64,000 bases of DNA from Candidatus Jettenia caeni (GTDB lineage: Bacteria > Planctomycetota > Brocadiia > Brocadiales > Brocadiaceae), in the NCBI GenBank assembly GCA_000296795.1, contig BAFH01000004.1, positions 558,001-622,000 on the forward strand, in the 5' to 3' direction. This document shows, piece by piece, positions 9,149 to 27,600 of this stretch; position 1 is the stretch's first letter, and every line of letters starts with the position of its first letter. Below the pieces are notes generated by a model, which saw only the letters and a program-made list of their open reading frames with translations, did not search any database and was not told where the DNA came from. Position numbers and translations under genes: made by a program.

Positions 9149-10469
9149 CGTTAAGCACTCCCTCTACCATAGGAATAAGCTCTTGAGCCTTTGCCAGCCC
9201 CATCGCCTTTTTCCAGAGTCCCGTTGCATCATTGCCGATAAGGAACTGACCACTGTGCTGATCTCTTTCTTCGACAAAAAAACCGAGCTTATAGAGGGTC
9301 TGATCCACATTCTCTTTTTTCCCGGACAAGAAATACCAACCGGGTTTTGCATGATAATTATCAGCATACTGTTTGAGGCGTTGTGGTGTATCGGTAATTG
9401 AGTCCACGCTGATGGAAATAATGTGCACATCCTTACCCAAACGTTCACCCACAGCCTCTTGTATTGCCAGCAAGTTTTTGCTCATGACAGGACAGATGCC
9501 CGTGCATTCGGTAAAAAAACAGTTGATAATAACGACCTTTCCCTTGATCAGATCGCTGTAAAACCGCATCTTATCTCCATACTGATTGACCAATTCCACA
9601 TCGGAAAAATATTTCTGCGCCGCCGGATTTCCCCCCTGCACAGCAGTGTTTTGTTGTACCTCTCTGACAAGCTTCACGATCTCTCTTCCGGCAACTGCTT
9701 CTCTTTTATCTTTTCTTGCCCTATCCTTTTCTCCAGACAATTCTTTCTTCGGGTTATCCAGCATATCCTCAATGACCTGGACTAATTGAGCCGATGGCGC
9801 AAGACCGTTAACCCGTGTCCATTGTCCCTTCGCTCCATTACCCACAAGGACGAGAGGCGAATGGTCCTCTTTTATCGGGGTAAAGACCTTCAGGGCTTTA
9901 AGGAGCTTATCTACATCTTGTTTCTTCCCGGTAAGGAAGGTCCATCCCGGTTTTGCCCCGAACTTCTCTCCCCACGCCCTGAGCCTCTGAGGGGTATCAT
10001 TCACGGGATCAACGCTGATAGAGATCAGATGGAAATCTCTGCCGGTACGATTACCCATGAGATTCTGGACTTTAGAGAAGTTAACGCTCAAGGGAGGACA
10101 TATGGTGGTACAGGTGGTAAAGATAAAATTTATAGCTACCACTTTGTCTTTTACCAGGTCACTGTAAAAGCGTACCTTCTTTCCCTCCTGATTCAGGAGT
10201 TCCACATCCGGTATCTTCATATTTAAAGTTGCCGCAACCTTACCTCCCTCTTTCTGTGCTTTTTTTTCAGGTGGACAGCAAGGCTTCTGTTCTGTGCATT
10301 CCGGGGTTTCTGCCTGAATAGCTTGTTTCGGCTGTAAGGGAACCGGCTTAATCTCATCCTGGGAAAATGATACACCTGACCAGAAAAAACAGACCGCCGG
10401 CACCAGTAGTTGCCATGATCTGAGTAATCTTTTTCCGGACTCTTTACCGGAACAGATGAATTTTGACAT
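9135..10469 (-). CDS. Tandem SCO1/SenC-family protein (two copper/thiol domains)
   Basis: 444 aa from ATG at 10469, with GGAG nine bases upstream; a GTG at 10484 is possible. Signal/anchor segment SWQLLVPAVCFFWSGVSFS, a linker rich in Glu, Lys and Cys, then two complete SCO domains. Domain 1 has CTTICPPLSVNF (about 119) and the downstream His in DHSPL. Domain 2 has CTGICPVMSKNL (about 320) and the His in DQHSG. SCO proteins use CxxxCP plus a distal His to bind copper or act as thiol reductants when copper enzymes are matured. Both sets of ligands are present, so both domains could be active. Its place just after the multicopper oxidase and beta-propeller genes suggests it metallates the oxidase (inference). 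Confidence 0.88.
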   Translation of the reverse strand: MSKFICSGKESGKRLLRSWQLLVPAVCFFWSGVSFSQDEIKPVPLQPKQAIQAETPECTEQKPCCPPEKKAQKEGGKVAATLNMKIPDVELLNQEGKKVRFYSDLVKDKVVAINFIFTTCTTICPPLSVNFSKVQNLMGNRTGRDFHLISISVDPVNDTPQRLRAWGEKFGAKPGWTFLTGKKQDVDKLLKALKVFTPIKEDHSPLVLVGNGAKGQWTRVNGLAPSAQLVQVIEDMLDNPKKELSGEKDRARKDKREAVAGREIVKLVREVQQNTAVQGGNPAAQKYFSDVELVNQYGDKMRFYSDLIKGKVVIINCFFTECTGICPVMSKNLLAIQEAVGERLGKDVHIISISVDSITDTPQRLKQYADNYHAKPGWYFLSGKKENVDQTLYKLGFFVEERDQHSGQFLIGNDATGLWKKAMGLAKAQELIPMVEGVLNDGIN

Positions 10470-10525
10470 TTCTGCAATCTCCACTTTTAAAATAGACCGT
10501 TCGGCGATTTTTTTATAACACCGGC

Positions 10526-10594: not shown

Positions 10595-12682
10595 TTACCC
10601 TTTGCTGGCAACCTGTAAGATTAAAGGCGGCAATTGGTTCAATCGGACGTTGAGTGATGGGCACTGGAAGGAGATATAGTATGCTCCTGCCTTCGGGGGT
10701 GTGAGATCAATTTGATAGATACCATCACCCACAGGCCTCGCCCATTGCCGGTTCTGCCAGTTACCAGAAGTAAACGCCATAACACCGAAGTCCTTCAGCC
10801 CAACCCTGGGTTGATCAGTTCCTGGATCAATAACCTTGAACAGCAATTGTACATTCTCCCCCACATAAAGGGTTTTCTTCTCCAGCATTGGCTCCACCCG
10901 CAGGGGCAGATGCTTATCCTTTTTCGATATATCCGGATTATCCCTCACGTTGACCGAAAAGCAATGAATAATGCGGGGAGAATCCATAAAGAGGATAATA
11001 TCAAGTTTTCCGTTAAGGGTAAGCCTGGTATTTGTTGCATAGACACCTGCTTCTACTTCTTTGAGACTCCGGTCAATGACCAGAATAGCCCGCGGCTGGC
11101 ACCCATAGTTTCGAAAATTGCCCATAGGCGCTGCCATTCCTTCCTGATAATAGTAGATGGCTTTGTCGACCGGATTAGCCACAAGAACCGCCCCGCCTCC
11201 GGGAGCGGAAACAATGCTGTCGGCGATACTCAGGCTTTGAGCCTTGCCGAAAGGAACCTGACCACCGATGAAATCGTTGACGGGAACAGGCGCTCCCTCA
11301 TGTCCAACCTGATCAAGCGGAATCATGAGGATTGATTCGCTGCCCCGCGATCTGATGTAGGCAGTGTTTTCCGTAAAAATTACCTGGTCCGGCTCCTTTC
11401 CAACGTCACCGGTTTGTATGATACGATGGGTTGAGGCATCAATAATATGAACGCTATTTTCCCGGGAGTTTACCGCGAATCCAAGGCGTCCGTTACGGGT
11501 AAAGCGCAGGACTCCAAGTCCGGGTTTCGCCTCGATACGATTTACGATCTCAAGGCTCTTGCTGTCAACAACGAGAATCGTTCCATCTTCTTCGTTTACT
11601 ACATAGGCCGCCTTGCTGAGGGCAGAGTAAGCTATTGAGACGGGCATCCTGCCACTCTGAATATCTCGGATTTTATTTAGTTTCCAGATATCGACAATGG
11701 AAACGGTGCCAGCATCCCGGTTGGTCACAAAGGCATAACGGTCATCTCCGGTAAAGGCTATCTCGTGATGTCCTGCACCGGTGGGAATATGAGCCACTTT
11801 CTTCAATGAAACAGTGTCGATAACCGTCACACCGCTTGTTGTATCCAGGGTATCAGCAGCGCCATCAGCGCCAACCCAGAGGTACTTTTCATCCGGCTGC
11901 AGCGCTATGCGCATGGGTCTCTGACCCGTATCGACGTTGGCGACAACCTTCCAGGCTGCGGTATCGATAACTGCAATCTGATTCGCCTGTGGCATAGTAA
12001 CAAAAAGTCTCCTCTGATCCTGACTCATAACCCAATCCTCACCCGGGCTTTTCAAAGGGACCCTTGCCAGCAGATTGCTGCCGCCATAATTAAAGAGAGG
12101 ATCAACTACCGAAATACTTGCTTCATCGTTGAGCGTAAGGACATAAAAGATGTTCAAGTCGATTTCTGCCCGCGAGGAAAGGCTGCCAGACAGGAGCGAT
12201 TGTACCTTCTCAGCACAGTCATCCGTTGTGGACAGTTGAATCCACGCTGCAGGGTCGAGCGTGGTCACCGGAGCGCCTGTCGTAGTATCAGTGATCCTAA
12301 ACTGTACGGTAACATCATCACCCTCTTTAAGTTCCTCAGAAATCTTCTCTCCGGAAACAACAGGGATTATCGAAAATTCCACAGCAATTCCCTCCCGGAC
12401 AATTTTTTTTGCTTCCTCATCTGCTTCTCCGGAGGTTAACGCCTTACTCGTGCCGGTCCCTCCCTGCTGTGCAGGAGCGGAATTGGGATTGCCGGAGGCC
12501 GATGCCACATCTGTCGTTCCTGGCTCCTTTTCAGAAATTGATAGTCCTTCTTTAGCCACACTGCCCTGGAATGAGGTATCGCAGGAGAGGAGAAAGAGGC
12601 AAATCACTGCTGAACAGAAAAGCGCAAACTTTTTGCTAATATATCTCATATATCTAATTCTGGCGAAGAGGAATTTAACCAT
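10595..12682 (-). CDS. Beta-propeller (YVTN/cytochrome-D1-like) lipoprotein
   Basis: About 695 aa from ATG at 12682, which has GGAG ten bases upstream; the frame extends to 12850 without such a site. The start carries a signal with lipobox-like FLLSCDTS, predicting a lipid-anchored exported protein. An Ala/Gly/Thr-rich linker follows. The central part has repeated YVTN-type blades: QNQIAVIDTAAWKVV, SGVTVIDTVSLKKVAHIP, AGTVSIVDIWKLNKI, DGTILVVDSKSLEIV, NSVHIIDASTHRIIQ. The C-terminal about 150 aa look like an Ig-like beta domain (YVGENVQLLFKVID, PPKAGAYYISFQC). No heme-binding signature is seen, so it is not a nitrite reductase. Downstream of the multicopper oxidase and probably co-expressed; may be a structural or partner protein for it. 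Confidence 0.8.
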   Translation of the reverse strand: MVKFLFARIRYMRYISKKFALFCSAVICLFLLSCDTSFQGSVAKEGLSISEKEPGTTDVASASGNPNSAPAQQGGTGTSKALTSGEADEEAKKIVREGIAVEFSIIPVVSGEKISEELKEGDDVTVQFRITDTTTGAPVTTLDPAAWIQLSTTDDCAEKVQSLLSGSLSSRAEIDLNIFYVLTLNDEASISVVDPLFNYGGSNLLARVPLKSPGEDWVMSQDQRRLFVTMPQANQIAVIDTAAWKVVANVDTGQRPMRIALQPDEKYLWVGADGAADTLDTTSGVTVIDTVSLKKVAHIPTGAGHHEIAFTGDDRYAFVTNRDAGTVSIVDIWKLNKIRDIQSGRMPVSIAYSALSKAAYVVNEEDGTILVVDSKSLEIVNRIEAKPGLGVLRFTRNGRLGFAVNSRENSVHIIDASTHRIIQTGDVGKEPDQVIFTENTAYIRSRGSESILMIPLDQVGHEGAPVPVNDFIGGQVPFGKAQSLSIADSIVSAPGGGAVLVANPVDKAIYYYQEGMAAPMGNFRNYGCQPRAILVIDRSLKEVEAGVYATNTRLTLNGKLDIILFMDSPRIIHCFSVNVRDNPDISKKDKHLPLRVEPMLEKKTLYVGENVQLLFKVIDPGTDQPRVGLKDFGVMAFTSGNWQNRQWARPVGDGIYQIDLTPPKAGAYYISFQCPSLNVRLNQLPPLILQVASKG

Positions 12683-12864
12683 TTCATCAAATCTCCGACT
12701 AAAGAATATATCAAATTTAAAGTTCTGCAGAGATGATACCTTGTTTTTCCATCTGTTTTCTTTCTGTTTAGGAATCAGAAACAGAGGAGGGAAAGATACC
12801 TCCAGATTGTAGTAATCCGGAACGGTATCCTCCCTCTTCACCTTCAGCAACTCAGATGAAAAAG

Positions 12865-15800
12865 TTACTCCTTAACCCGCATGATACCCCAAATTCCGCC
12901 ATCGAACTGGAAGGATGACATATCACGCCAGAGATAGTCACCGGCAACTCCAAATTTGCCACCGGCGCCGTTCTGGAGCACAGCATCAAAATGGTTCGTC
13001 GGGCCATGACCCATTCTGGCGCCCTCAAACATAGTCAACCATTTACCCCCTAGCTTGTTATCACCAATCCGTGTGGAATTATTCTGGTACGGCAACTCCT
13101 GCCAAACATGGCCATGCACCATGAATACGTGGTTGCGCGGATGGCCTCCCGGCTGAAGCACCCTGAAACGGACCTGTGTTCCTTTATTAACCGTGAAGAC
13201 AGGGGTTTCCGGGTCCTTATCTCCGACCTGTGCATTCGTAAGCGCATTGGCAAAGTCAACGGTTCGGGTAAACGTCAAAGGCGCATCCGGAGCAAAGCCC
13301 ATTCGGAACCACATTGGCTCACTGCGATAGTTGACGGCCTTCTGGCCTGAATCCTCCGCATCCTCAGCCTCCGCTGTGTTAGGTACCGGCCCATTATCAG
13401 CAATAGTACCATCACCCAGTTTATCACCAAAGCGGAAATTGATGTCATCCTGGAATACGGTAACAAACTCACGGAATAAAAGGTTATTATTTGCATCATA
13501 AATATTGGCAGCCATACGGGATTTCCTGTTCTGATTCAGATCGAAATCGGTCTTCCATTTCGACCCTTGCGGTTCAATGATTAACGCCGCAACCGCCCCT
13601 TTATTGCTGTGTTTGATAAGGTCAGATGATGATATGTTTATGCTGCCAAATTCTACTGGTTTTGCATTCAGGGTTCCATCAGGCTGCAAATCCAGGTGAC
13701 CTGCATACCATCGATATCTTTTGCTGCTTCCCGGCTTGGTAGCCTGTAAACTGTTGTAACCAACGTTAACACCATCATGTCTGGCGATGTCGTAACTTAC
13801 CAGTTGCGGGTGCAGTCCCGTGTAACTGGAAGGCCGAACCTGGTTGATGTTGAAGTGATCTACAATCATCGGCATCGTGCTAAAGCCAGACAAATCGGGA
13901 GCTGCTCCTGATGGAAGCCTGTTCCTGAAGTTTATCTCGATACAATCGCCGGCATTTGCGCGCAGGACCAGTGGTTCTACCGGAATATTCGGTTTCAGTT
14001 TACCTTCATCGGGACCCGACTTTATCAGATCGCCATGGAAAACGAAGAGTATTGCTGTAGGATCATGGAGCGGTCCATCATTCTCTTCCCGGGAATTATA
14101 CACTAATGTTTTCTCTTTCAGGACATTCTTAGCAAGAACCGCCGTTACTGCATATGACCGCACCGGCGCCGAATCAGGACAAACACCCTCAAAATCATCA
14201 GCATTGGCAATCATATCACCCGGAATATCCATGTTATTAGGCAACGGCATGAGATCATCCTGCAGGTTCTTGTATGCGCGCAAGATTCCCCAGCAACCAT
14301 TCCAAAGACCATCCGATGAAGAATCCGGTTTATAGAGATAATCGTTAAACCGCCTGCCGCTGGTGGTTTCAACCTTTATAACGGGCGCTACCATCTCAAA
14401 ATGCTCGGAGATACCCATCATCTGAGAGCTGCGATAGCCCGAGTTTGTCCACCCAGGTTCATAGAACCACTTGAGTCCGTGGATGGAGAAATTGTGTCCC
14501 TCCTCTGTGGCGCCGACCATGGTGCGAATCTCGATCCTGTCATTTTGATAGGCACGCAAGAGAGGTGTGAAAGGATCGCCGCGTTTCGCGCCCTGGGATG
14601 CCGTTGCATTCGGATAAGGCCAATTACTCGGAGAAAGGTTAAAGGCCGGATCGGCCCGGCTTACATCGGAACGGAAGGCGTAGGAAAGATCACCTGCCTT
14701 ATCCGTTGCCTGGGTATTGGTATTTGGATTACGGATCCGCAAGGCAATCGGTTCGTTGCGGTTATTGATCGAAAAAGTACCGACATCATCCGCTGAAATG
14801 GCTTCGGGACAAGGGAGCGGTTCACCACCGGGGCATTCCTCGGCTCGCTTTACCAGGAAGGGAAGACCGATTTCCTCCCTGCCAGGCGGATTGACAGCCA
14901 GATCCGGTTGGGCTGGTTTATCGAAACCTCCTCCAGGCTGACGGGCAACACCATTCCACGGCTTCGGGAAAGTTGGGCCTCCCCCGGACGGCAGTTCGGG
15001 ATGGCTGTCTTTCCTGTACGACAATTGAAAATCGATGAACTCGAACATGAACTCACGGTAACTATCAGCGCCATCTTCTCCTGCCAGGATATCAGCCCGC
15101 CAACTAGTCGGTCCTCCATCATCACGCGTTCCCATGGTAACACCACTTACCGGATCGCGCCATGTTGATCCTTTGGGTTCGATAAGCAACCCGGCGTACA
15201 GGCCTGCCTGCTGGTGTGTCGATGGACCATAATGATCATGGGTATACACGGTACGGAGGGTACGGTCATGTCCATTGAGGTTTAAGAGAGGATCCGCATA
15301 CCAGCGCTGGACTGTAGTCTGAGCCCCGTCAACATGGAAAAATGGATGGGCCTCTGCCTCTAAGTCCGGCTGCGGCTGGCCATCGTCATCCAGAAGTCCG
15401 CTCTTACCGGTAGGATCAAAATGATTCAGCGCTTCAATTCTTTCTTTCACCTCGTCCGGACTAAAAGTACCGTCTTCGTAATTCCAGCCATTGCCCGATC
15501 CGTCAGCAGACAACACATCGAATTTTACCAAATGGATGTGCTGCCCGATGACATCAGTTGGTGTGCGGACCTGGAAGTCATCTAACTCGTAGATATGAGG
15601 AACCAGGTTCGTGTGCCAGTACTCAACACAATCGCCACTATTAGCGCGGACGAACAAGGGTTCAGGCGCACGGGTCCCATTATAGTATGCCGACACGTCT
15701 TTCCATAACGAGAGTATGCGTGTCTGCGGGAAGTGCCAGCCTGCCTTATTGAGGATAGCATCGATCTGGATAACCGCAGCCTTATAGGTTCGAATGGTTG

Positions 15801-17910
15801 TAATGGGATCTCCGGAATCATCAACGCAAGGGTCTGCAAATGGAGCCCCCCGCACCCGGGGCCGGCCGTTAGTAACGAAATTGCCCGCAGCAACATTTCC
15901 GTTGAGATCGACGGCAGAAGACGGATGATTTAACTGTTCGTGAAAACTCATGGCTGCCTTCTCAACATCCGTCCCATTCTCAGGAAGCTCTTGAGCCTTC
16001 ATAGCCAGGATTTCCTTGGTGAAGTCAAGGCGCGTATGCACTTCCCTGGTAACGTTGTCGGGATCGCTGACAACGACATGTCTGGGCAGACCACCATCAT
16101 GAATGGTATCAAGCGGCGGATGGGGCGGCCGATGGCCTGCAACACCAGGAACGAAGAACGGAAACCCGGGATTCCCGTTTCCTGTAATCTGTACCGTGCT
16201 CGAATCATCAGTACCATCGCCATTCGCATCGGCTGGTATAATGGTTACCACTGCCCCCGGCATCGGCGCCATGGGCAAACCCGGCAGCGGTACCACACCC
16301 GGAATCGGTGTACCGGCTACAATCTCTCCGTCAGGCAGCTTGCGTGTACCATCCTCAAAGACGTCATGAACACGCCAGAGCGCCCACATTCCCTGGGCAA
16401 AGTGAGGATAAAAGTGGCAATGGAAGATAGAATCTCCCGGAGTTCTGTTACGGTTTCCGCTGCCGTTATAGCAAATCTCCGTCGTATATGCACTGCCGGG
16501 ACCAAGGGCCTGGCTATCAAGATAGGAGGAGTTATCGCTGTCAGGACTATGTACCCACTGATGCGCATGGAGATGATGGATGTGGTGCTCCTTGGAACCT
16601 GCGTTGAGTACCCGGAATTTTACATGATCACTGAGATAGGAGTGATAGACATTCGATGGATCATCAGGGTAAAGAGCTTCAGTGGCAACTGGTCCGGGTA
16701 CCAGGGTGTCCAAAATATTTGGGTCTACTCTCAGATTAGCCGGATTATCAACCACCATAGCAGGGTCGCCCGCTGTCCACGAGCTCAGGAAGAATTCCTC
16801 GTACTTGCACTCGGTACAGTCCCACATCGGACCAACCCCGAGACGATTGGCAATAATCTCCGCGCCTGCACCGCCGGAACCGTAGTTAATGCCAAAACTA
16901 TCCCGCACGCCATGTAACGTATGGATAAGAACCGGATCCTCGAAGAAAGCAGGAAATGCCTGTACGGCGCCGATCTCATCGTGATACATTATGGTAAACT
17001 CCCTGAATGGCTGGTTACGGTTCGGATAGACGGGATTTGGTAAGTAAGTGCCACTGGCAGGGACGATGATTGCCGTCAGGTCCGAGTGGACGATATTGTT
17101 GCCGCTATCGAGGATATTTAAAACGGGAGTATTGGAAGGTATTAAACCCCCGGAAGGATACGTTGCCCCACCAGGGTAGACCTTGTTGTAGTTGATTTTA
17201 GGCTGCCCGGTAGGAGTTGTTGCCGTGGTGGCAATCACTATGTCACTGGCCGTTACCTGGCTACGAAACCATACAGAGTTTTTGGGCTCGACATTGACAG
17301 CGCCGAAGAGACCGCTGTTCAAAGATCCTCCGTCCCCCTCACCGCCAACCGTTGCTCCTGCACTGTAGAGAAAATGAGACCCCTCACGTTCGGCGTACAG
17401 GGTATAAACGGCAGAATCTCCGGGTTCAACGAGACCACTATTCTGATTGTCACCAACGTTTGAACCATCGTCAGCTATGCCGTTTACTAACTGCATACCG
17501 ACTACGTGTACCGAGGCTGCTCTCGTGGCCGGTTGCTCGTCATCAACAGGTGCGTTTGCCAAAAGATTGGTAAAAGTGATCTCCAGACAATCACCCTCAT
17601 TCATACGAAGAACGAGTGGGCGAGGTCGTTTATCTGGCCGGAGCTGAACGTTTCCAGGAGTTAATTCGCTCCCTGAGATTGGGATAACATCTCGTTTCAG
17701 CGCAAAGATCATACCCTGTGGCTGGGAAGCGCCAAGCCGGTTCCAGAAGAACGGCTGATCCAGTGCCACAACATCGGCTTTAATAGTTCTCTGGCACCCC
17801 GCTTCTGCAGAACTTCCCCAAAAAACCGCTCCAAGAATTATTAGTAGTAGACTAATGGTAAACAATATCCCTGGAGTTCTTATAGTAAAATATGTTCGAA
17901 CAGACATCAT
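12865..17910 (-). CDS. Giant secreted multicopper oxidase (multi-cupredoxin)
   Basis: 1681 aa from ATG at 17910, chosen because GGAGG lies six bases upstream. Signal peptide about 1-40, ending near SSAEAG. The protein holds several cupredoxin units. HIHHLHAHQW (about 440) and HCHFYPHFAQGMW (about 493) give a Cys-His bridge for trinuclear and type 1 copper. HIHLVKFD (about 788) and THDHYGPSTHQQ (about 890) form another His set, HNFSIHGLKW lies near 1140, and HVFMVHGHVW near 1593. The last unit ends in YLWRDMSSFQFDGG where an HCH motif would be expected, so that domain probably lacks type 1 copper. Size and layout recall MnxG-like or other large metal oxidases. Substrate unknown: Mn(II), Fe(II), Cu(I) or a nitrogen compound are all possible. 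Leads the copper cluster; a riboswitch-like leader lies upstream at 18198-18276. Confidence 0.87.
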   Translation of the reverse strand: MMSVRTYFTIRTPGILFTISLLLIILGAVFWGSSAEAGCQRTIKADVVALDQPFFWNRLGASQPQGMIFALKRDVIPISGSELTPGNVQLRPDKRPRPLVLRMNEGDCLEITFTNLLANAPVDDEQPATRAASVHVVGMQLVNGIADDGSNVGDNQNSGLVEPGDSAVYTLYAEREGSHFLYSAGATVGGEGDGGSLNSGLFGAVNVEPKNSVWFRSQVTASDIVIATTATTPTGQPKINYNKVYPGGATYPSGGLIPSNTPVLNILDSGNNIVHSDLTAIIVPASGTYLPNPVYPNRNQPFREFTIMYHDEIGAVQAFPAFFEDPVLIHTLHGVRDSFGINYGSGGAGAEIIANRLGVGPMWDCTECKYEEFFLSSWTAGDPAMVVDNPANLRVDPNILDTLVPGPVATEALYPDDPSNVYHSYLSDHVKFRVLNAGSKEHHIHHLHAHQWVHSPDSDNSSYLDSQALGPGSAYTTEICYNGSGNRNRTPGDSIFHCHFYPHFAQGMWALWRVHDVFEDGTRKLPDGEIVAGTPIPGVVPLPGLPMAPMPGAVVTIIPADANGDGTDDSSTVQITGNGNPGFPFFVPGVAGHRPPHPPLDTIHDGGLPRHVVVSDPDNVTREVHTRLDFTKEILAMKAQELPENGTDVEKAAMSFHEQLNHPSSAVDLNGNVAAGNFVTNGRPRVRGAPFADPCVDDSGDPITTIRTYKAAVIQIDAILNKAGWHFPQTRILSLWKDVSAYYNGTRAPEPLFVRANSGDCVEYWHTNLVPHIYELDDFQVRTPTDVIGQHIHLVKFDVLSADGSGNGWNYEDGTFSPDEVKERIEALNHFDPTGKSGLLDDDGQPQPDLEAEAHPFFHVDGAQTTVQRWYADPLLNLNGHDRTLRTVYTHDHYGPSTHQQAGLYAGLLIEPKGSTWRDPVSGVTMGTRDDGGPTSWRADILAGEDGADSYREFMFEFIDFQLSYRKDSHPELPSGGGPTFPKPWNGVARQPGGGFDKPAQPDLAVNPPGREEIGLPFLVKRAEECPGGEPLPCPEAISADDVGTFSINNRNEPIALRIRNPNTNTQATDKAGDLSYAFRSDVSRADPAFNLSPSNWPYPNATASQGAKRGDPFTPLLRAYQNDRIEIRTMVGATEEGHNFSIHGLKWFYEPGWTNSGYRSSQMMGISEHFEMVAPVIKVETTSGRRFNDYLYKPDSSSDGLWNGCWGILRAYKNLQDDLMPLPNNMDIPGDMIANADDFEGVCPDSAPVRSYAVTAVLAKNVLKEKTLVYNSREENDGPLHDPTAILFVFHGDLIKSGPDEGKLKPNIPVEPLVLRANAGDCIEINFRNRLPSGAAPDLSGFSTMPMIVDHFNINQVRPSSYTGLHPQLVSYDIARHDGVNVGYNSLQATKPGSSKRYRWYAGHLDLQPDGTLNAKPVEFGSINISSSDLIKHSNKGAVAALIIEPQGSKWKTDFDLNQNRKSRMAANIYDANNNLLFREFVTVFQDDINFRFGDKLGDGTIADNGPVPNTAEAEDAEDSGQKAVNYRSEPMWFRMGFAPDAPLTFTRTVDFANALTNAQVGDKDPETPVFTVNKGTQVRFRVLQPGGHPRNHVFMVHGHVWQELPYQNNSTRIGDNKLGGKWLTMFEGARMGHGPTNHFDAVLQNGAGGKFGVAGDYLWRDMSSFQFDGGIWGIMRVKE

Positions 17911-18082
17911 GATTGCCCTCCTTTTCTCTTTCACTTCGCAAAACAATTCAGATAAAATTATTCGTGAAAATTGACAAAATCATTGTGTCTTTGCATTCCG
18001 CACAGGAGTAAATTTTTCCTATAAAAATTAAAAGGAATTGTGCACTTTCTTTATGATATTGTTGAGCCTCCTTTCTCATCAT

Positions 18083-18140
18083 GAAAACAAAAAAGCCTTA
18101 CTGCAAAGATACTCATGGAAAATATCTTCGGCAGTAAGGC
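18083..18140 (-). terminator. Intrinsic terminator / expression platform, left arm
   Basis: On the minus strand AGCCTTACTGC pairs with GCAGTAAGGC, extended by an inner helix, and is followed by a T-rich run (TTTTTTGTTTTC). It lies between the aptamer and the multicopper oxidase start, 173 nt before the ATG, as expected for transcriptional riboswitch control. Confidence 0.8.
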
Positions 18141-18197
18141 TATCTTATTTCTTCGTGTCAGTTATGAGTGTAAGTGTCTGGTTAAGTATACTAACAC

Positions 18198-18276
18198 TAT
18201 TCACAAATACTGTTCACGGCTACAAGACCCTTTCCTTTGCGCCCCCTGATCGCTCAGGGTTTACCTTTGTCGAATA
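18198..18276 (-). ncRNA. Cyclic-di-GMP-I (GEMM)-like riboswitch aptamer, left arm
   Basis: Read on the minus strand: a closing stem (TATTCGACAAA with TTTGTGAATA, one bulged G), then AGGTAAACC, a hairpin CTGA-GCGA-TCAG with a GNRA loop, then GCGCAAAG, GGGTCT and TAGCCG. This order matches the GEMM core (GCAAACC, GNRA hairpin, GACGCAAAG, GGYCU, UAGCCG). Only two bases separate GGGTCT from TAGCCG, so the second hairpin is unusually short; it may be a variant class or weakened. Located upstream of the multicopper oxidase with a terminator in between. Confidence 0.55.
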
Positions 18277-18653
18277 TTTACCGCATTATTATTTTGACCT
18301 TAAAAGCATATCAATTTACATGCCGATTCCGGTTACCTAAGTATTTTAACGTTGAACAAAAGGGTATTGTTATTTTACGTTAACTTTTAAACCTATACGC
18401 AAGATATCACAAAAAAGAATAAAGTCAATATTATTTTGCCCTTAATGGAAATGAAAATAGTTAACAAAACAGTTTTTAACCCGACGGATGACATTCTGCA
18501 GATTGTTATTTTTTTGCTAAAGACTGTCGAAAAAATCTTATTTGAAGTCTTGTAGTACCATACGGGGACAAGGTGGCACAGACAATCCCCATATGCATGA
18601 AGCTAACATAGGGAAACGGTGGAGAATAGCAAACTACCCGTAATCCCCCTTTT

Positions 18654-18682
18654 GTAGGGGCGGGTTTGAAACCCGCCCCTAC
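18654..18682. repeat. GC-rich palindrome inside left arm
   Basis: GTAGGGGCGGG...CCCGCCCCTAC, flanked by complementary CCCCCTTTT and AAAAGGGGG, giving an extended hairpin. Same family as 10526-10554. Confidence 0.75.
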
Positions 18683-18787
18683 AAAAGGGGGAATGGTGAA
18701 TACTTTAGAAAAGGGGGAAAGGTGTGATATGTTTGATCAGGCAAACTTTTCTCAAGAAAATTTACCATAAGAGGCTCTGGAGTATTT

Positions 18788-19022: not shown

Positions 19023-19379
19023 CTACAGAAATTGTTAATTCTCTTTCCTCTTTCACGAAGGAAATACCCGTATCTCCTCTTTTCCCAACACTCATACATT
19101 TCCCCCTTTTTTAAAGGGGGATCAAGGGGGATTACTTCTTTTTTGCTTTGCTCTGGGCTTTGGCTTGCCCGCAATGATTGTGAAAAGATAACCTTTTAGA
19201 CAACTTTCGGGTCAGGTTTGTACCGTATTTTGAGTAATTACGAGGGATTCATAACCTCCTCTAAGAACCAATCAACATCTCTCAATATTCGTGAAAACCT
19301 CTGATATGTCAGTTGTCAATACTTGCCGGGCAACATACTCTATACAGAATCTCTTTGGAAAAAAAGGAAGAAGAATATC

Positions 19380-19407
19380 TTGTGAAATAAATTTATAATC
19401 ATATAAT
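19380..19407 (+). promoter_or_regulatory. Candidate sigma70 promoter for propeller/PKD gene
   Basis: TTGTGA, 16-bp spacer, TATAAT, 74 bp before the start codon. The -35 is only moderately good and the region is AT-rich, so this is tentative. Confidence 0.35.
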
Positions 19408-19481
19408 AATTAAGATTATTTTGCGGTAAAAGGCCCTTCAGCTTTGGAGGAAGATAAAAACAATAGCTTAGAGGAGTAGAT

Positions 19482-22100
19482 ATGTTTTTTAACGCCAAAT
19501 ATAAAAATCTTTTTATCTATTTGATAATCCTTGCTCCATTCACTTCCTTTTTATCATCAGTAAGAAGTTCAAGTGCTTTAGCGCACGATAATTTTTATGT
19601 CGGATTAGCCCGGATTATCAAGACTAGCCGTTTTAATATTCTAAATCCTGACGGCATGATATTCTGTTCAAAATCTAAGACCTTTTTTGTTGTGGAGGCT
19701 CCTCTATCTGCTCAATCCTCTCATAATATCACAATGATTACTTCTACTGAAGAGTTGGTTGGCTCTCTACCTATAGCAACTCGTATTACTGATCCAATAA
19801 ATATGACCTTTGATGATAAGGCCAATCGATTGCTCATCTTTCAGTCAGATACCAAAACATTGGTTAAAATAAAGGCGGGGTCTGATGGCTACTTGAATCC
19901 TGATACCATTACCGAATTTGATGCCCAGAAATTTGGTCTTCAAAATCCACAGGGAATGACTGTTGACCCGGCGCATGGACATCTCTTTATCCTGGATAGC
20001 GCTGTGCCAGAGATTGTTCATATCAGGCCGCATCCCTGTCGGGATTTTCATAACGCAAAGATTTCCCGCATACACCTGGAGCAGATTGAGAAATCAGACC
20101 TTCAGGGCATTGCCTTCAATCCCGCGAATGGTCATCTCTATAGCCTGAATTTCCGTGAGCAGGCGTTATACGAGTTTACCAGGGAAGGCAAGATTGTTAC
20201 AACTTACCCTGTATCTGAATTTGAACTCAGGAACCCACGAAGTATAGTTTTTGCGCCCAGCGGAGATCAAACCGATGACCCATCAAAGACCTGCCTGTAT
20301 ATTGCAGATCGCAATCATGATACAAAAGAAGATCGAAAGACTGAACTGTTTGAAGATATGCAAAAATATACCGATAAGGAGAAAGATGGGCAAGGATACG
20401 GTAAAATTATCGAGTTCTCTTTTACTCAACCAGCTCTTATTGCTGCTACAAATACCACTTCCCTGATACGGACGATTGATACTTCCAAATTCTCACCTCC
20501 CGGTCCCGACCCATCCGGTATTATCTATCTTCCATTCTCTAACAGGCTTCTCATTGCTGATGGCGAGGTCGATGAAGTGCGCGCCTTTGCCGATGTTAAT
20601 CTCTTTGAAATGAGTCTGACTGGTAATCTGCTCGATACCCTGAGCACCATATCCTTTTCAAATGAGCCAACCGGGATAACAATGAATCCCGATAACAGAC
20701 ATCTTTTCATTGCCGATGATGCTGAGCGTAAGATATTTGAATTGGATCCGGGTCCCGATGAAAAGTATAATACCTCAGATGACAGACTTACTTTTTTCGA
20801 TACCAGGCCTTTCGGTAGCACGGATCCGGAAGGGATTGCCTACGATACCTCGCAGGGAGTGCTTTTTATAGCAGACGGATTGAATCGTGAAGTGTACCGG
20901 GTTGCGCCAGGAAATAACGGTATCTTTGATGGTGTATCACCATCGGGTGATGATCAGGTGACGCATTTCGATACGTTAAGTATCGGGGTAGATGATCCGG
21001 AGGGAATCGAATATAACCCGGATAATAATCGTTTGTATTTAGTTGGTAAGCCAAAAACACAATTGGCTGAATTAACGAAGACAGGCGCCCTTAAGCAGAT
21101 GTTCGATATTTCAGCGGCAGACGCCAAAAAACCGTCCGGACTTGCCTTTGCTCCTGGCAGCCTGAACCCGAATGTGAGGAACATCTATATTGCTGCACGG
21201 GGAGTTGATAATAACAATAATCCAAATGAAAACGATGGCAAGGTGTATGAGATTTCTCTGATCCCGGCTACCATAGGTAATCAGCGTCCCACGGTTAGCG
21301 CAGGACCTAATCAGACAATTATTCTACCGGAAAATGTTTCTTTGAATGGTATGGTTTTTGATGATAGCCTGCCGGATCCGCCCGACACAGTGACCACTAC
21401 CTGGAGCAAGGCCAGTGGGCCGGGTACGGTTACTTTTGGCGATGCCAATGCTGTCGATACGACGGCCAGTTTCTCAGAAGCGGGAACCTATGTGCTGCGT
21501 CTGGCTGCCAATGATGGTGAGTTAAACACCAGCGATAGTATAACTATTACTGTCCTGGATAACCCGGGAGGGGTTGTCATAGACGTCAGAGTTACGACAG
21601 GTTCAAACGATGCAGAAGAAAGAGCATCAGGTCGTATTATCCTTGATAGTACTGATCTTGACCTTGTCTTTGAGAAAGACAATCAAAAGGTGGGAATGCG
21701 TTTTACCGGAGTTGATATCCCGGAAGATGCAACAATCATCAGAGCCTATATTCAGTTTATGACGGATGAGATACACTCCGGAGCAACCTCGCTGATCATT
21801 CAGGGGGAAGCTGCCAATAATGCCGCTCCGTTTACCTCTATTGACGGGAACATATCGTCCAGACCAAGAACAACGGCTGCAGTGAAATGGTCGCCGGCAG
21901 CCTGGCTAACAAAAGGAGAAGCTGGCCTCAATCAGAGGACGTCCAACATATCCTCTGTCATTCAGGAGATTGTAAGCAGCACCGGGTGGTCAAGAGGCAA
22001 TTCGCTGGTAATTATCATTACGGGAACCGGTAGACGTGTGGCTGAGTCATTTGAAGGAAATGGAGACGGGGCGCCATTGCTCCACGTGGTGTATAATTAG
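19482..22100 (+). CDS. Exported beta-propeller + PKD-like + C-terminal beta module protein
   Basis: 872 aa; ATG at 19482 preceded by AGAGGAG. Signal segment at about 8-30. Residues about 40-590 form an NHL/SdiA-regulated-type beta-propeller with repeated blade units ([60 protein letters not shown]). A PKD/Ig-like domain follows at about 603-692 (RPTVSAGPNQTI ... ADGELNTSDSITITVLD-like ending). The last about 175 aa (VIDVRVTTGSNDAEE to PLLHVVYN) are a beta-rich module reused twice in the paralogue at 24687. Probably extracellular or surface-bound. It sits between the two long inverted arms. Function unknown; adhesion or matrix binding is a reasonable guess. Confidence 0.75.
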   Translation: MFFNAKYKNLFIYLIILAPFTSFLSSVRSSSALAHDNFYVGLARIIKTSRFNILNPDGMIFCSKSKTFFVVEAPLSAQSSHNITMITSTEELVGSLPIATRITDPINMTFDDKANRLLIFQSDTKTLVKIKAGSDGYLNPDTITEFDAQKFGLQNPQGMTVDPAHGHLFILDSAVPEIVHIRPHPCRDFHNAKISRIHLEQIEKSDLQGIAFNPANGHLYSLNFREQALYEFTREGKIVTTYPVSEFELRNPRSIVFAPSGDQTDDPSKTCLYIADRNHDTKEDRKTELFEDMQKYTDKEKDGQGYGKIIEFSFTQPALIAATNTTSLIRTIDTSKFSPPGPDPSGIIYLPFSNRLLIADGEVDEVRAFADVNLFEMSLTGNLLDTLSTISFSNEPTGITMNPDNRHLFIADDAERKIFELDPGPDEKYNTSDDRLTFFDTRPFGSTDPEGIAYDTSQGVLFIADGLNREVYRVAPGNNGIFDGVSPSGDDQVTHFDTLSIGVDDPEGIEYNPDNNRLYLVGKPKTQLAELTKTGALKQMFDISAADAKKPSGLAFAPGSLNPNVRNIYIAARGVDNNNNPNENDGKVYEISLIPATIGNQRPTVSAGPNQTIILPENVSLNGMVFDDSLPDPPDTVTTTWSKASGPGTVTFGDANAVDTTASFSEAGTYVLRLAANDGELNTSDSITITVLDNPGGVVIDVRVTTGSNDAEERASGRIILDSTDLDLVFEKDNQKVGMRFTGVDIPEDATIIRAYIQFMTDEIHSGATSLIIQGEAANNAAPFTSIDGNISSRPRTTAAVKWSPAAWLTKGEAGLNQRTSNISSVIQEIVSSTGWSRGNSLVIIITGTGRRVAESFEGNGDGAPLLHVVYN

Positions 22101-22195
22101 CTCCGGTCAGCAGATTCTTTATGCTGAATGTAAGATAGACCAGGATGCAGAGAAGGTAATTCAATTGCGTGGGAATGAACGAGCTGCTGGTAAAG

Positions 22196-22238
22196 TGTGA
22201 CATGTCACATTCTTGTCTCAGGCACATATCTGTGACAG
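22196..22238. repeat. TGTGAC/GTCACA palindrome array, locus 2
   Basis: Begins with the perfect 14-bp palindrome TGTGACATGTCACA and ends in CACATATCTGTGACAGG. The same two blocks occur, on the other strand, at 58338-58380. Confidence 0.65.
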
Positions 22239-22460
22239 GGTTACACAGGGATATTATCTTCGTGTATTAAAAATCATAAAAATTATGTAATAATTTGGTT
22301 GGGTTTTAAAAGACAAAACCTAACGACTTTTCCCTCTTACACATCCCGATGCTCTCTGGATGGGGCTAAGGGGCATATGCATCAAGCTAAGAATAGTGTT
22401 CCATGAAATAAGGAGGTATCCCCCTGGAAAAAGAGCAATGTGTGTCCAATATTCCCCTCT

Positions 22461-22757: not shown

Positions 22758-23558
22758 TCATGTCCGGAAAGTATCCTTGAAGTGGTCGAAAATAACGGTA
22801 AGGTTGTGAGCTACAAAGGCAACAACCACATGGGTAAAGATGGCGGTAAGATTGAAATTCAGAAATGAAGCAACCTGTGCAGCCAGATACGAATCAGCGA
22901 TTTTGTGAGTAATGGCAACGGTCACCATGAAGTAAAAAATAGCAAGGAGCTCAATAGGGGTGATCTCATGGTTTTTAAAGCGGTTAATCTGGGATTCATG
23001 GGGTATTGCCAGAGGAGATAAGCCACAGGCTTTTGCATACTTGTCGTTTTCCTCTAAGAATCGTGGGATTTCGGCATCGCAGGGAAGGTTTTTCAGAGGT
23101 CGAAGTAAGAGCATCTTGAACTTGGAAACCGGAGAGTAGTAGGAAGAGATTTTTTCATCAGAAGATTTCTTGAAGAGGGAACGAGAAAGGGACACATGGG
23201 GATTTTCTTCAAGGATGAAGTTCAGGAAAGAGAAGTCAAAGAATGCGAGGATGGCCAGGGGGTAATGTTTTTGGAGTTGTTTGGGAGAATGGAAGAACTG
23301 TCTGAACCATTCATAATCGTCAACATCGCTAAAGGTGAGTTGTTTGTGAGGTGACTGGAAATTTTTAAAGCTGAGCGGAGGATGGGAAAGAAACGATGGG
23401 GGAATCTTTTTGAGTATGGAGTCGATTTCTTGAGCCGTTTGCGAAAGAGTAGATTCGTCATAGACAGCGAGATTGAACCATTCATTGATTGTCTTGTCAG
23501 ATTTCAAATCATGAAGGGAATTATAAATTGGTTTATGAACGTCTCTGGTAAAGAGCAT
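22758..23558 (-). CDS. Transposase N-terminal-like remnant or hypothetical protein
   Basis: 266 aa. The middle (LLLRPLKNLPCDAEIPRFLEEN ... GLSPLAIPHESQINRFKNH, split here) resembles the N-terminal region of IS4/IS5/IS1182-type transposases, where a short segment ending in S-x-x-x-RF precedes the catalytic domain. No DDE catalytic domain follows; after about residue 215 the sequence becomes hydrophobic (FNLTAIFTHVVVAFVAHNLT) and stops. It is therefore either a truncated transposase whose end was replaced, or a lineage-specific protein with two possible membrane helices. It lies inside the inverted-arm segment, opposite in direction to the propeller gene. No function is assigned. Confidence 0.5.
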   Translation of the reverse strand: MLFTRDVHKPIYNSLHDLKSDKTINEWFNLAVYDESTLSQTAQEIDSILKKIPPSFLSHPPLSFKNFQSPHKQLTFSDVDDYEWFRQFFHSPKQLQKHYPLAILAFFDFSFLNFILEENPHVSLSRSLFKKSSDEKISSYYSPVSKFKMLLLRPLKNLPCDAEIPRFLEENDKYAKACGLSPLAIPHESQINRFKNHEITPIELLAIFYFMVTVAITHKIADSYLAAQVASFLNFNLTAIFTHVVVAFVAHNLTVIFDHFKDTFRT

Positions 23559-24046
23559 AGGGAAAGGTTTCCTTAAGATTTTATAGGAAAAAATACTGCA
23601 GGTATTATACAGGATGTAAGGAGGATTTTAAAAAGAAAAATAGCTGAAATATGGCTATTTGCAAGGCTTTTCAAGCCTTGCAAGACACTCTAGTTGAGAA
23701 AAGGAGGAAGGATTTCCTCTTGAGAAAAGTTTGCCTGATCAAACATATCACACCTTTCCCCCTTTTCTAAAGTATTCACCATTCCCCCTTTTGTAGGGGC
23801 GGGTTTCAAACCCGCCCCTACAAAAGGGGGATTACGGGTAGTTTGCTATTCTCCACCGTTTCCCTATGTTAGCTTCATGCATATGGGGATTGTCTGTGCC
23901 ACCTTGTCCCCGTATGGTACTACAAGACTTCAAATAAGATTTTTTCGACAGTCTTTAGCAAAAAAATAACAATCTGCAGAATGTCATCCGTCGGGTTAAA
24001 AACTGTTTTGTTAACTATTTTCATTTCCATTAAGGGCAAAATAATA

Positions 24047-24074
24047 TTGACTTTATTCTTTTTTGTGATATCTT
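24047..24074 (+). promoter_or_regulatory. Candidate promoter for riboswitch leader (right arm; mirrored in left arm at 18401-18428)
   Basis: TTGACT, 16-bp spacer, TATCTT, about 125 bp before the aptamer. The same sequence in the left arm would drive the multicopper oxidase leader. A weak -10 makes this tentative. Confidence 0.35.
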
Positions 24075-24198
24075 GCGTATAGGTTTAAAAGTTAACGTAA
24101 AATAACAATACCCTTTTGTTCAACGTTAAAATACTTAGGTAACCGGAATCGGCATGTAAATTGATATGCTTTTAAGGTCAAAATAATAATGCGGTAAA

Positions 24199-24277
24199 TA
24201 TTCGACAAAGGTAAACCCTGAGCGATCAGGGGGCGCAAAGGAAAGGGTCTTGTAGCCGTGAACAGTATTTGTGAATA
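24199..24277 (+). ncRNA. Cyclic-di-GMP-I (GEMM)-like riboswitch aptamer, right arm
   Basis: Identical to the left-arm aptamer: AGGTAAACC, GCGA-capped hairpin, GCGCAAAG, GGGTCT, TAGCCG, closed by a 10-bp stem with one bulge. It precedes the terminator at 24335-24392 and the exported 1636-aa protein, a typical target type for c-di-GMP control. The short second hairpin leaves ligand identity open. Confidence 0.55.
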
Positions 24278-24334
24278 GTGTTAGTATACTTAACCAGACA
24301 CTTACACTCATAACTGACACGAAGAAATAAGATA

Positions 24335-24392
24335 GCCTTACTGCTGAAGATATTTTCCATGAGTATCTTTGCAGTAAGGCTTTTTTGTTTTC
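24335..24392 (+). terminator. Intrinsic terminator / expression platform, right arm
   Basis: GCCTTACTGC pairs with GCAGTAAGGC and is followed by TTTTTTGTTTTC on the plus strand, 295 nt before the ATG of the 1636-aa gene. Carries the one visible difference from the left arm (A instead of G in the CTTCxGCAG segment, as read on the opposite strand). Confidence 0.8.
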
Positions 24393-24445
24393 ATGGTTAA
24401 ATAAGAAGGCTGAACGATATGATAAGGAAAGTGCACAATTCCTTT

Positions 24446-24686: not shown

Positions 24687-27600
24687 ATGTTTTTTGCAAG
24701 CAGCCGTAAAAATCTCTTCGCCTGTTCAATGATCCTTGCCGGGCTTATTACCTTTTTATCATGCATAAAAAATTCAGCTACCCTGGCGCAAGATAACGCT
24801 GTTTATATTGATCAAGCCCGGACTATCGAGACTCGTTATCTTGGTATCCTAGACCCTGCTGGTCTGTCTTTCTCCTCAAAGGCAGGGATTTTTCTTATTG
24901 TGGACCATTCCAAACTTGCTCAATCTTCTTCTGATCTCTCTTCCGACATCACGATAATTACCCCTACTGAAGATCTGGTCGGCTCTGTACGCATAGCAGA
25001 TTATATTCATGATCCTATAAATATGACCTTTGATAAAAAGGCTAGCCGCCTGCTCATCTTTCAGTCAGACACCAATACCTTGGTTGAAATAAAGGCGGGG
25101 TCTGATGGCTATTTGGACCCGGATACCATCACCAAATTTGATGCCCAGAAATTTGGCCTTCAAAATCCACAGGGAATGACTGTTGACCCGGTACATGGAC
25201 ATCTCTTTATCCTGGATAGCGCTGTGCCAGAGATTGTTCATATCAGGCCGCATCCCCTTCGGGGTTTTCATAATGCAAAGATTTCCCGTATACACCTGGA
25301 GCAGATTGAGAAGTCAGACCTTCGGGGCATTGCCCTCAATCCTGTGAATGGTCATCTCTCTATCCTGAATTTTTATGAGCGGATGTTATACGAGTTTACC
25401 AGGAAAGGGAAACTTGTTGCAAGGCGTGATGTATCGGAATTTGGGCTGCAAGACCCGCAAGGTATGGTCTTTGCTCCCAGCGGAGACCTGACGGATGACC
25501 CATCCCAAACAAGCCTCTACATTGCCAACTGCAGTCTTACCGGTAAGGGTGTTCAAAAGACTCAGTCGTCCGATGATAGAGGGAAGAAAGAGGAGCAGGG
25601 ATATGGCAACATCATCGAGTTGTCCCTTACTCAACCGCCTGTTGTGGCAGCCACGAGTAACGCTACTTTAGTCCGGACTATCGATACCTCCAGATTTTCT
25701 CCGCCCAGTCCCGATCCATCGGGTATTACCTATCTTCCTTCTTCTAACAGGCTGCTCATGTGTGATGGCGAGGTCGAAGAAATGTCCATCTTTGCCGGCG
25801 CTAATCTCTTTGAAACGAGCCTGACTGGTAACCTGCTTGATACCCTGAGCACCATGCCCTTTTCAGATGAGCCAACCGGGATAACGATAAACCCTGCTAA
25901 TAGACATCTCTTTATTTCTGATGATGTTGAGCGCAAGGTATTTGAATTGAATCCCGGACCAGATGGGAAGTACGATACCTCAGATGACAGACTTACTTCT
26001 TTCGATACCAGGCCTTTCGGTAGCACGGATCCGGAAGGGATTGCCTACGATACCTCGCAGGGAGTGCTTTTTATAGCAGACGGATTGAATCGTGAAGTGT
26101 ACCGGGTTGCACCGGGAAATAACAGTGTCTTTGATGGTATCTCACCATCGGGTGATGATCAGGTAACGCATTTCGATACGTTAAGTATCGGGGTAGATGA
26201 TCCGGAGGGAATCGAATATAACCCGGATAATAATCGTTTATATTTAGTTGGTAAACCGGCGACACAATTGGCTGAGTTAACGAAGACAGGCGCCCTGACG
26301 CAGATGTTCGATATTTCTGCGGCAAACGCCAAAAAGCCTGCCGGTCTTGCCTTTGCACCTGGCAGCCTGAACGCGAATGTGAGGAACATCTATATTGCTG
26401 CACGGGGAGTTGATAATGATAGCAACCCGAACGAGAACGATGGCAAGGTGTATGAGATGTCCTTCACACAAACTCCGCCGGGCAACCAGCGTCCCACGGT
26501 GAGTGCAGGAGCCGACCAGACAATTACTCTGCCGGCAAATGCTTCTCTGAATGGAACGGTATCCGATGATGGCTTGCCGAATCCTCCCGGTGCAGTAACC
26601 ACTACCTGGAGTAAAGTCAGCGGTTCAGGCACAGTGACCTTTGGCAATGCCAATGCGGTCGATACAACGGCGAGCTTTTCGGCAGCAGGGACTTATGTAC
26701 TGCGCCTGACTGCCAATGATAGTGAGTTAAACACCGGCGACGATGTAACCATTACAGTCCTGGATACTACAGGAGGAGGAACCATAGACGTCAGGGTTTC
26801 GATTGGTACAGATGATGCAGAAGAGAGCGCTTCAGGAGATATGTTATTGGGCAGCAGCGACCTTGAGATGGTTTCTACCTCTAGTGGCAACCAGAAGGTA
26901 GGGATGCGCTTTACCGGAATCAATATCCCAAAAGATGCTGCCATTAGTAATGCCTATATTCAATTTAAGGCAGATGAGATACATTCGGATGCAACCTCGC
27001 TGATCATCCAGGGGGAAGCTGCCAATAATGCCACTCAATTTACCTCTGTTGACGGGAACATATCGTCCAGACCGAGAACAACGGCTGCAGTGGCATGGTC
27101 GCCGGCAGCCTGGCTAACAAAAGGAGAGGCTGGCCTCAATCAGAGGACGCCCGACATATCCTCAGTCATTCAGGAGATTGTAAGCCGCGCCGGGTGGTCA
27201 AGCGGCAATTCGCTGGTAATTATCATTACAGGCACTGGCAGACGGGTAGCAAAGTCCTACAATGGTGACCAGGCAGGTGCACCATTGCTCCATGTTGTAT
27301 ACAGTACAGGAGGACAAACGAATCAACCTCCCTTAGTTAACGCAGGCCAGGATCAGGCGGTTACCTTACCGGCAAGCGCTGCTCTGGATGGTAGTGTTTC
27401 TGACGATGGTTTACCGAATCCACCGGGCGCCGTGACTACTACCTGGAGTAAGGTCAGTGGCCCAGGCACAGTGACCTTTGGCAATGCGAATGCTATCGAT
27501 ACAACGGCGAGCTTCTCGGTAGCAGGAACTTATGTACTGCGCCTGACTGCCAATGATGGAGGATTGAATGCCAGTGACGAACTGAGCGTTATTGTATCGA

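Follow-up and report, generated by a model that had tools for sequence, protein, structure and literature searches.

Control by cyclic dinucleotides through ON switches that act by antitermination is established in Geobacter, where such riboswitches are tied to extracellular metal respiration (PMC6456294). In Pseudomonas resinovorans, c-di-GMP has been linked to Mn(II) oxidation, apparently without a riboswitch in the part of that report available to us (PMC9765421), and manganese-oxidase genes have been reported from MAGs of other Planctomycetota (PMC10732223). The open-access literature yielded no report of a c-di-GMP-I riboswitch in Planctomycetes or of GEMM RNA in Kuenenia and, judged by titles and abstracts, nothing apparent on c-di-GMP riboswitches in anammox bacteria.

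The stretch analysed here (the window) comprises 64,000 nucleotides of Candidatus Jettenia caeni (contig C4, 558001-622000, of the 4.09-Mb genome). It carries a leader upstream of a giant multicopper oxidase gene. We consider it probable that this leader holds a riboswitch of the c-di-GMP-I (GEMM-I) class which works as an ON switch of transcription, a reading in which we infer the ligand and the direction of switching. The genes concerned and a candidate promoter are:

9135-10484, minus strand: double SCO1/SenC copper-chaperone-like protein (PF02630, two stretches)
10595-12850, minus strand: YncE/cytochrome-d1-like beta-propeller protein (Pfam), 14 bp after the oxidase gene
12865-17910, minus strand: giant secreted multicopper oxidase of 1681 aa, MnxG-related, with a signal peptide (NF041487, 9bxa, PF07732)
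18285-18314, minus strand: sigma-70-like promoter TTGATA-18-AATAAT directly upstream of the aptamer (10/12 in a consensus scan, a weak type of evidence)
24687-29597, plus strand: giant NHL/PKD-repeat protein (Pfam), the target of a second riboswitch (copy B) and probably secreted

The aptamer upstream of the oxidase gene (copy A) and its counterpart are composed as follows:

18127-18275, minus strand: c-di-GMP-I riboswitch aptamer, copy A, before the oxidase gene (RF01051, 46.5 bits)
18265, 18238 and 18131, minus strand: pocket bases G20, A47 and C92 of copy A (alignment to RF01051 and RF03167)
18244-18259, minus strand: P2 hairpin CCCTGA-GCGA-TCAGGG, 6 bp with a GNRA loop (Rfam alignment; compensatory changes at four of the six pairs)
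18133-18236, minus strand: P3 arm; an insert of 76 nt, absent from the Rfam model, is freely replaced in relatives
24200-24348, plus strand: c-di-GMP-I riboswitch aptamer, copy B (RF01051, 44.3 bits over the full model 1-87, above 35)

The Rfam covariance model RF01051 (c-di-GMP-I) matches copy A end to end (18275-18127, minus strand; model positions 1-87) with 46.5 bits, the cut-off (gathering score) being 35 bits; the E-value is 6e-6 for 64 kb searched with 4227 families. This score is modest among c-di-GMP-I matches because of the insert in P3. Copy B is nearly identical to copy A; its C93 is replaced by U and its C92 is kept. The whole oxidase leader folds 5.4 s.d. below shuffled sequences. 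Matches to mir-722 and mir-188 lay far under their cut-offs and were dismissed as chance hairpins. An earlier note on this DNA, made from the sequence alone, had assigned the leader to the GEMM/c-di-GMP-I class and proposed an Infernal search with the Rfam models; that search bears the assignment out. The full-model score, the pocket bases, and the GNRA-capped P2 and P3 with covarying pairs make membership in the c-di-GMP-I class nearly certain.

The elements that the earlier note had listed are all in place on the minus strand: AGGTAAACC (18266-18258), a hairpin with a GNRA loop (GCGA), GCGCAAAG (18242-18235), GGGTCT (18230-18225), and a strong terminator. Its placement of the 3' half and its view of the second hairpin have to be revised. 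TAGCCG (18222-18217), which it took for the aptamer 3' half, lies inside the long arm, and the Rfam alignment assigns this role to AGATAGCCTTACTGCCGAA at 18145-18127 (minus strand). The orthologue from Candidatus Jettenia ecosi (L022:5456-5571; RF01051, 50.2 bits) agrees with the alignment: its 5' core, 3' strand (18145-18127 in the window) and terminator are letter-identical to the window copy, and its insert, including the TAGCCG stretch, is swapped for another palindrome. The second hairpin, described as nearly absent, is actually this long arm, which carries the 76-nt insert and folds by itself. In P3, a single pair, G18234 with A18135, is mismatched (G-A).

Conservation was followed over 37 distinct Brocadiales sequences, which are related by descent, so that pair counts do not represent independent events. 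P2 is paired in nearly all of them, with exchanges C-G/U-A, U-A/C-G and G-C/C-G/A-U. Covariation in homologous leaders, which the earlier note had named as a check, is thus found as compensatory changes, mainly in P2. Most P3 pairs are retained, and two P3 positions are mismatched in one or other subfamily. Position 21 pairs with the second G of GRCGC as C-G or U-G and, in genome G001, as U-A; among the distinct rows, the combinations of position 21 with the R of GRCGCAAAG are C-A (20), U-G (10), C-G (6), and U-A (1). Comparison of three Jettenia species shows a core and a terminator that hardly vary, a P3 insert that has been exchanged, and flanks of about 80% similarity.

Insertions seem to be tolerated in the P3 arm. 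That the arm is itself a mobile element was considered and rejected: seven of the eight matches to the arm sequence fall in known riboswitches and the eighth revealed a further riboswitch, which makes the arm a part of this family of riboswitches. The P3 arms of the J. ecosi orthologue (L022:5505-5550), L040, L041, L044, and L048 instead contain a palindrome akin to TAGAGACGCAT-ATGCGTCTCTA, of which the genome has 16 occurrences.

The pocket is that of the standard class. All 77 aptamers taken from Jettenia caeni and related genomes have G20, as do the two window copies, and C92 is present in 37 of 37 distinct rows; the pattern that extracted the 77 aptamers demanded CAAAG, so that the A47 count in this set is not independent. 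The numbering of G20, A47, and C92 was placed with the Rfam alignments and with the Vc2 structure. The model for the c-di-GMP-I-GGC variant, RF03167, scores 50.2 bits on copy A, under its cut-off of 59 bits, and its diagnostic G47 is missing (GCAAAG, not GCGAAG). A variant class, which the earlier note had thought possible, is therefore not indicated. The genome has 10 GGDEF and 3 EAL matches. The usual Asp is retained in seven of seven GGDEF domains that were readable by pattern (of the 10 matches). This Asp is replaced in the Hypr enzymes, which make cGAMP, and none of the seven readable domains has a Hypr signature. Since the G20/A47/C92 set is present, the GGC model stays below its cut-off, and the GGDEF Asp is kept, the sequence evidence makes c-di-GMP, rather than cGAMP, the likely ligand.

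In Geobacter, cGAMP riboswitches of the GEMM fold control extracellular redox genes (PMC6456294), and an aptamer that senses cGAMP (GEMM-Ib) or another ligand by the same ON mechanism would be an alternative; the raw score of RF03167 (50.2 bits) also exceeds that of RF01051 (46.5 bits). We regard such a ligand as improbable. The cGAMP switch Gmet_0970 naturally has A at base 20, and the change A20G converts it to c-di-GMP (PMC6456294), whereas base 20 is G in both window copies and 77 of 77 relatives. G20 has been described as a selectivity factor, not a strict filter (PMC9262584). The lack of a Hypr signature in the seven readable GGDEF domains and the sub-threshold RF03167 match without G47 also speak against this alternative.

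Both aptamers run into a terminator:

18089-18141, minus strand: intrinsic terminator, its 5' arm being the aptamer 3' strand, with the U tract at 18094-18089 (folding)
24334-24386, plus strand: copy B terminator, overlapping the aptamer 3' strand (folding, mutual exclusion)

The transcriptional platform suggested earlier is present insofar as a terminator precedes the oxidase gene; it does not simply follow the aptamer, as had been supposed, and shares its 3' strand. Because one strand is common to both, aptamer and terminator are mutually exclusive. Of the 12 paired bases in the stem beside the U tract, copy A retains 2 and copy B 4 once the aptamer pairs are held in place. Relatives with an overlapping terminator show the same loss, with few exceptions, and those with a separate terminator keep the stem intact. 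For L041, L045, L066, L068, L071, L090, and L095, the terminators were misplaced by the simple T-run rules of the automatic classification, which affects the holding test there.

In the full transcript, computed without ligand or tertiary contacts, the terminator fold beats the aptamer by about 17 kcal/mol; before the terminator 3' arm is transcribed, the aptamer costs only 5.6 kcal/mol. Given this stability of the terminator, the ON state would need kinetic trapping, which is usual for such switches. From the strand sharing and mutual exclusion, both window copies are predicted to be ligand-ON switches, which we consider likely on the basis of the folding models. RNA polymerase would make the aptamer first. 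At high c-di-GMP, the ligand would lock the site where P2 meets the long P3 arm, and the 3' strand AGCCUUACUGCC would stay in its duplex with the P3 5' side. At low c-di-GMP, the AGCCUUACUGCC strand would pair with the later GCAGUAAGGCU to give the terminator, and its formation would leave the oxidase operon untranscribed (presumably the genes for the oxidase, the beta-propeller protein, and the SCO-like protein; the beta-propeller gene is probably co-transcribed with that of the oxidase). Copy B would act likewise on the NHL/PKD giant.

A second riboswitch form, in which the terminator is separate and can form alongside the aptamer, is found in the same genome (L040, L041, L043, L044, L048, and L050) and in relatives. 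Since the two structures coexist, OFF logic is plausible for these copies, and the models are compatible with possible OFF control. If the same arrangement applied upstream of the oxidase gene, c-di-GMP would lower oxidase expression; we judge this to be very unlikely, as both window terminators lose most of their stem when the aptamer is held, owing to the strand in common. In L040, L043, L062, L063, L083, and L091, pairing of the P3 5' side with the terminator 5' arm could give an antiterminator. Another genus of the family (genome G009; L097, L099, L102, and L103) has c-di-GMP-I riboswitches, with tandem copies at two sites. There, the terminator 5' arm AAGACCCA could pair with the aptamer TGGGTCTT, and these copies are, by their sequence, probably OFF switches.

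The two window riboswitches are embedded in a long inverted repeat:

18069-18757, minus strand: 689-nt leader repeat, arm A, with a 99% identical inverted copy at 23718-24406
23718-24406, plus strand: 689-nt leader repeat, arm B

Paired leaders are 98.3% identical within genome G000, 97.4% within G001, and 84% within G002, while leaders from different species share about 79-84%. As the leaders of G000 and G001 are closer within the genome than between species, their sequences suggest gene conversion or recombination between paired leaders. In G001, the segment between the leaders (19252-22347 in the window; about 675081-678180 on G001:C1, L116) is inverted relative to the window, the flanks being collinear; in J. 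ecosi, it has the window orientation. The leaders are the inverted repeats that bound this segment and, as the two switches are directed outward, both outer genes keep a riboswitch after an inversion. No riboswitch was detected before the middle gene (19482-22100), even with a relaxed threshold. A transposase-like gene (DUF772; 22761-23558) separates the middle gene from the second leader, and a 49-nt palindromic repeat (TCCCCCTTTTGTAGGGGCGGG...), which looks like a MITE-like element, is found at 18644-18692 and 23783-23831, in the leader repeats upstream of the riboswitch.

A leader that has been copied as a 689-nt repeat, with a large P3 insert and one P3 mismatch, might be a decayed relic of the duplication that now serves as a constitutive attenuator. 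We find this hardly credible, as core and terminator are kept in three species while arm and flanks vary, and the pocket is intact in both copies. The ON switch remains our preferred reading.

The target is, as the earlier note had it, a giant secreted multicopper oxidase (start codon at 17910). It matches the solved MnxG structure (PDB 9bxa) with an E-value of 2.8e-112, and its type-1, type-2, and type-3 copper motifs, HIHHLHAHQW and HCHFYPHFAQGM, align to those of 9bxa. Its score against NF041487 (MnxG) is 1477.9 bits, under the equivalog cut-off of 3100 bits. By sequence, it is a relative of MnxG and not an equivalog, for which Mn(II) oxidation is a candidate function only.

Among 59 related genomes, the oxidase is encoded in three, all Jettenia, and the riboswitch precedes it in all three. 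The closest named relative, from Candidatus Jettenia ecosi, is 93% identical over all 1681 residues. Other relatives are 51-63% identical in the best segment and come from MAGs labelled Acidobacteria, Terriglobia, Planctomycetota, Deltaproteobacteria, Bacillota, and uncultured bacterium; no RF01051 match was found near them in six loci. The simplest reading of these sequences is that the oxidase may have been gained horizontally and then captured a resident riboswitch leader. In G001 (C1:668798-673839), the oxidase gene is split into overlapping matches to residues 1-1570 and 1566-1681, reflecting either a frameshift or a sequencing error.

The genome has 21 RF01051 matches which, together with the two window copies and one at C4:1031749, amount to about 24 riboswitches. 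A 42-nt pattern of the Jettenia-type core occurs 18 times and a reversed control pattern not at all; with the model score and the folding of the leader, this sets the element well outside chance expectation. Related genomes of the same genus have 24 and 28 RF01051 matches, and other members of the family 1 to 21. Downstream genes were called by ORF length, so that some of these target assignments are approximate:

Pilus: type-IV-pilin-like protein (L040); PilM (L041); prepilin peptidase and RcpC/CpaB of the Flp pilus (L043)
Glycosyltransferase (L048); HEAT-repeat protein and subtilase (L050); matrixin-like protease (L054)
Beta-helix proteins (L036, L037); second NHL/PKD giant (L053); PAS histidine kinase (L038)

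Two copies (L046, L051) have no obvious target. At L039:301-2254, a riboswitch precedes a response regulator that has both a partial GGDEF domain and a methyltransferase domain, where feedback is possible.

Anammox bacteria work as granules and biofilms and, to our knowledge, little is known about the control of their aggregation. With about 24 riboswitches whose downstream genes encode pilus components, adhesin-like proteins, proteases, and the oxidase, the genome presents a concrete and testable anammox regulon. For metal biology, the locus would, if our reading is correct, place an MnxG-like oxidase directly under c-di-GMP by means of an RNA, which suggests a direct connection from a biofilm signal to metal oxidation. 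Any role of these proteins in metal oxidation or in the matrix is putative. As a tentative and rather doubtful generalization, Jettenia may have placed a horizontally gained MnxG-type oxidase under a c-di-GMP ON riboswitch, such that the sessile state, in which aggregates form, directly turns on extracellular metal oxidation within a regulon of about 24 members with ON-type and OFF-type platforms.

The regulatory link had been called new in the earlier note. This holds for a direct riboswitch, an MnxG-like oxidase, and an anammox host; c-di-GMP had previously been connected with Mn(II) oxidation, a connection that, as far as the available part of the report indicates, is apparently not by riboswitch (PMC9765421), and cyclic-dinucleotide riboswitches had been described for extracellular redox proteins in Geobacter (PMC6456294). 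What is new is the host, the copy number, the strand-sharing form in which the arm is freely exchanged, and the direct connection with an MnxG-like oxidase.

Compared with MnxG (NF041487, PDB 9bxa), the encoded protein is likewise a giant oxidase with matching HxHxHQW and HCH...H motifs, but reaches 1478 of the 3100 bits. RF03167 belongs to the same clan as RF01051 and gives a slightly higher raw score; the window aptamer stays below its cut-off and has A47 where the variant has G. The Geobacter GEMM-Ib riboswitches (PMC6456294) resemble the Jettenia copies in the antitermination ON logic predicted for the window, the many copies per genome, and the extracellular redox targets, but differ in that the window has G20 instead of A and that its genome shows no Hypr signature in the readable GGDEF domains. 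The closest counterpart is GEMM-I as described by RF01051, with G20/A47/C92, a GNRA-capped P2, an internal-loop receptor in P3, and secreted or surface gene targets. The window aptamer departs from it by its 76-nt P3 insert, a P3 base consisting of AGGAAAGG and CCUUACU with one mismatch, and its anammox planctomycete host, while the genes downstream of the Jettenia riboswitches match the surface and adhesion theme usual for the c-di-GMP-I class.
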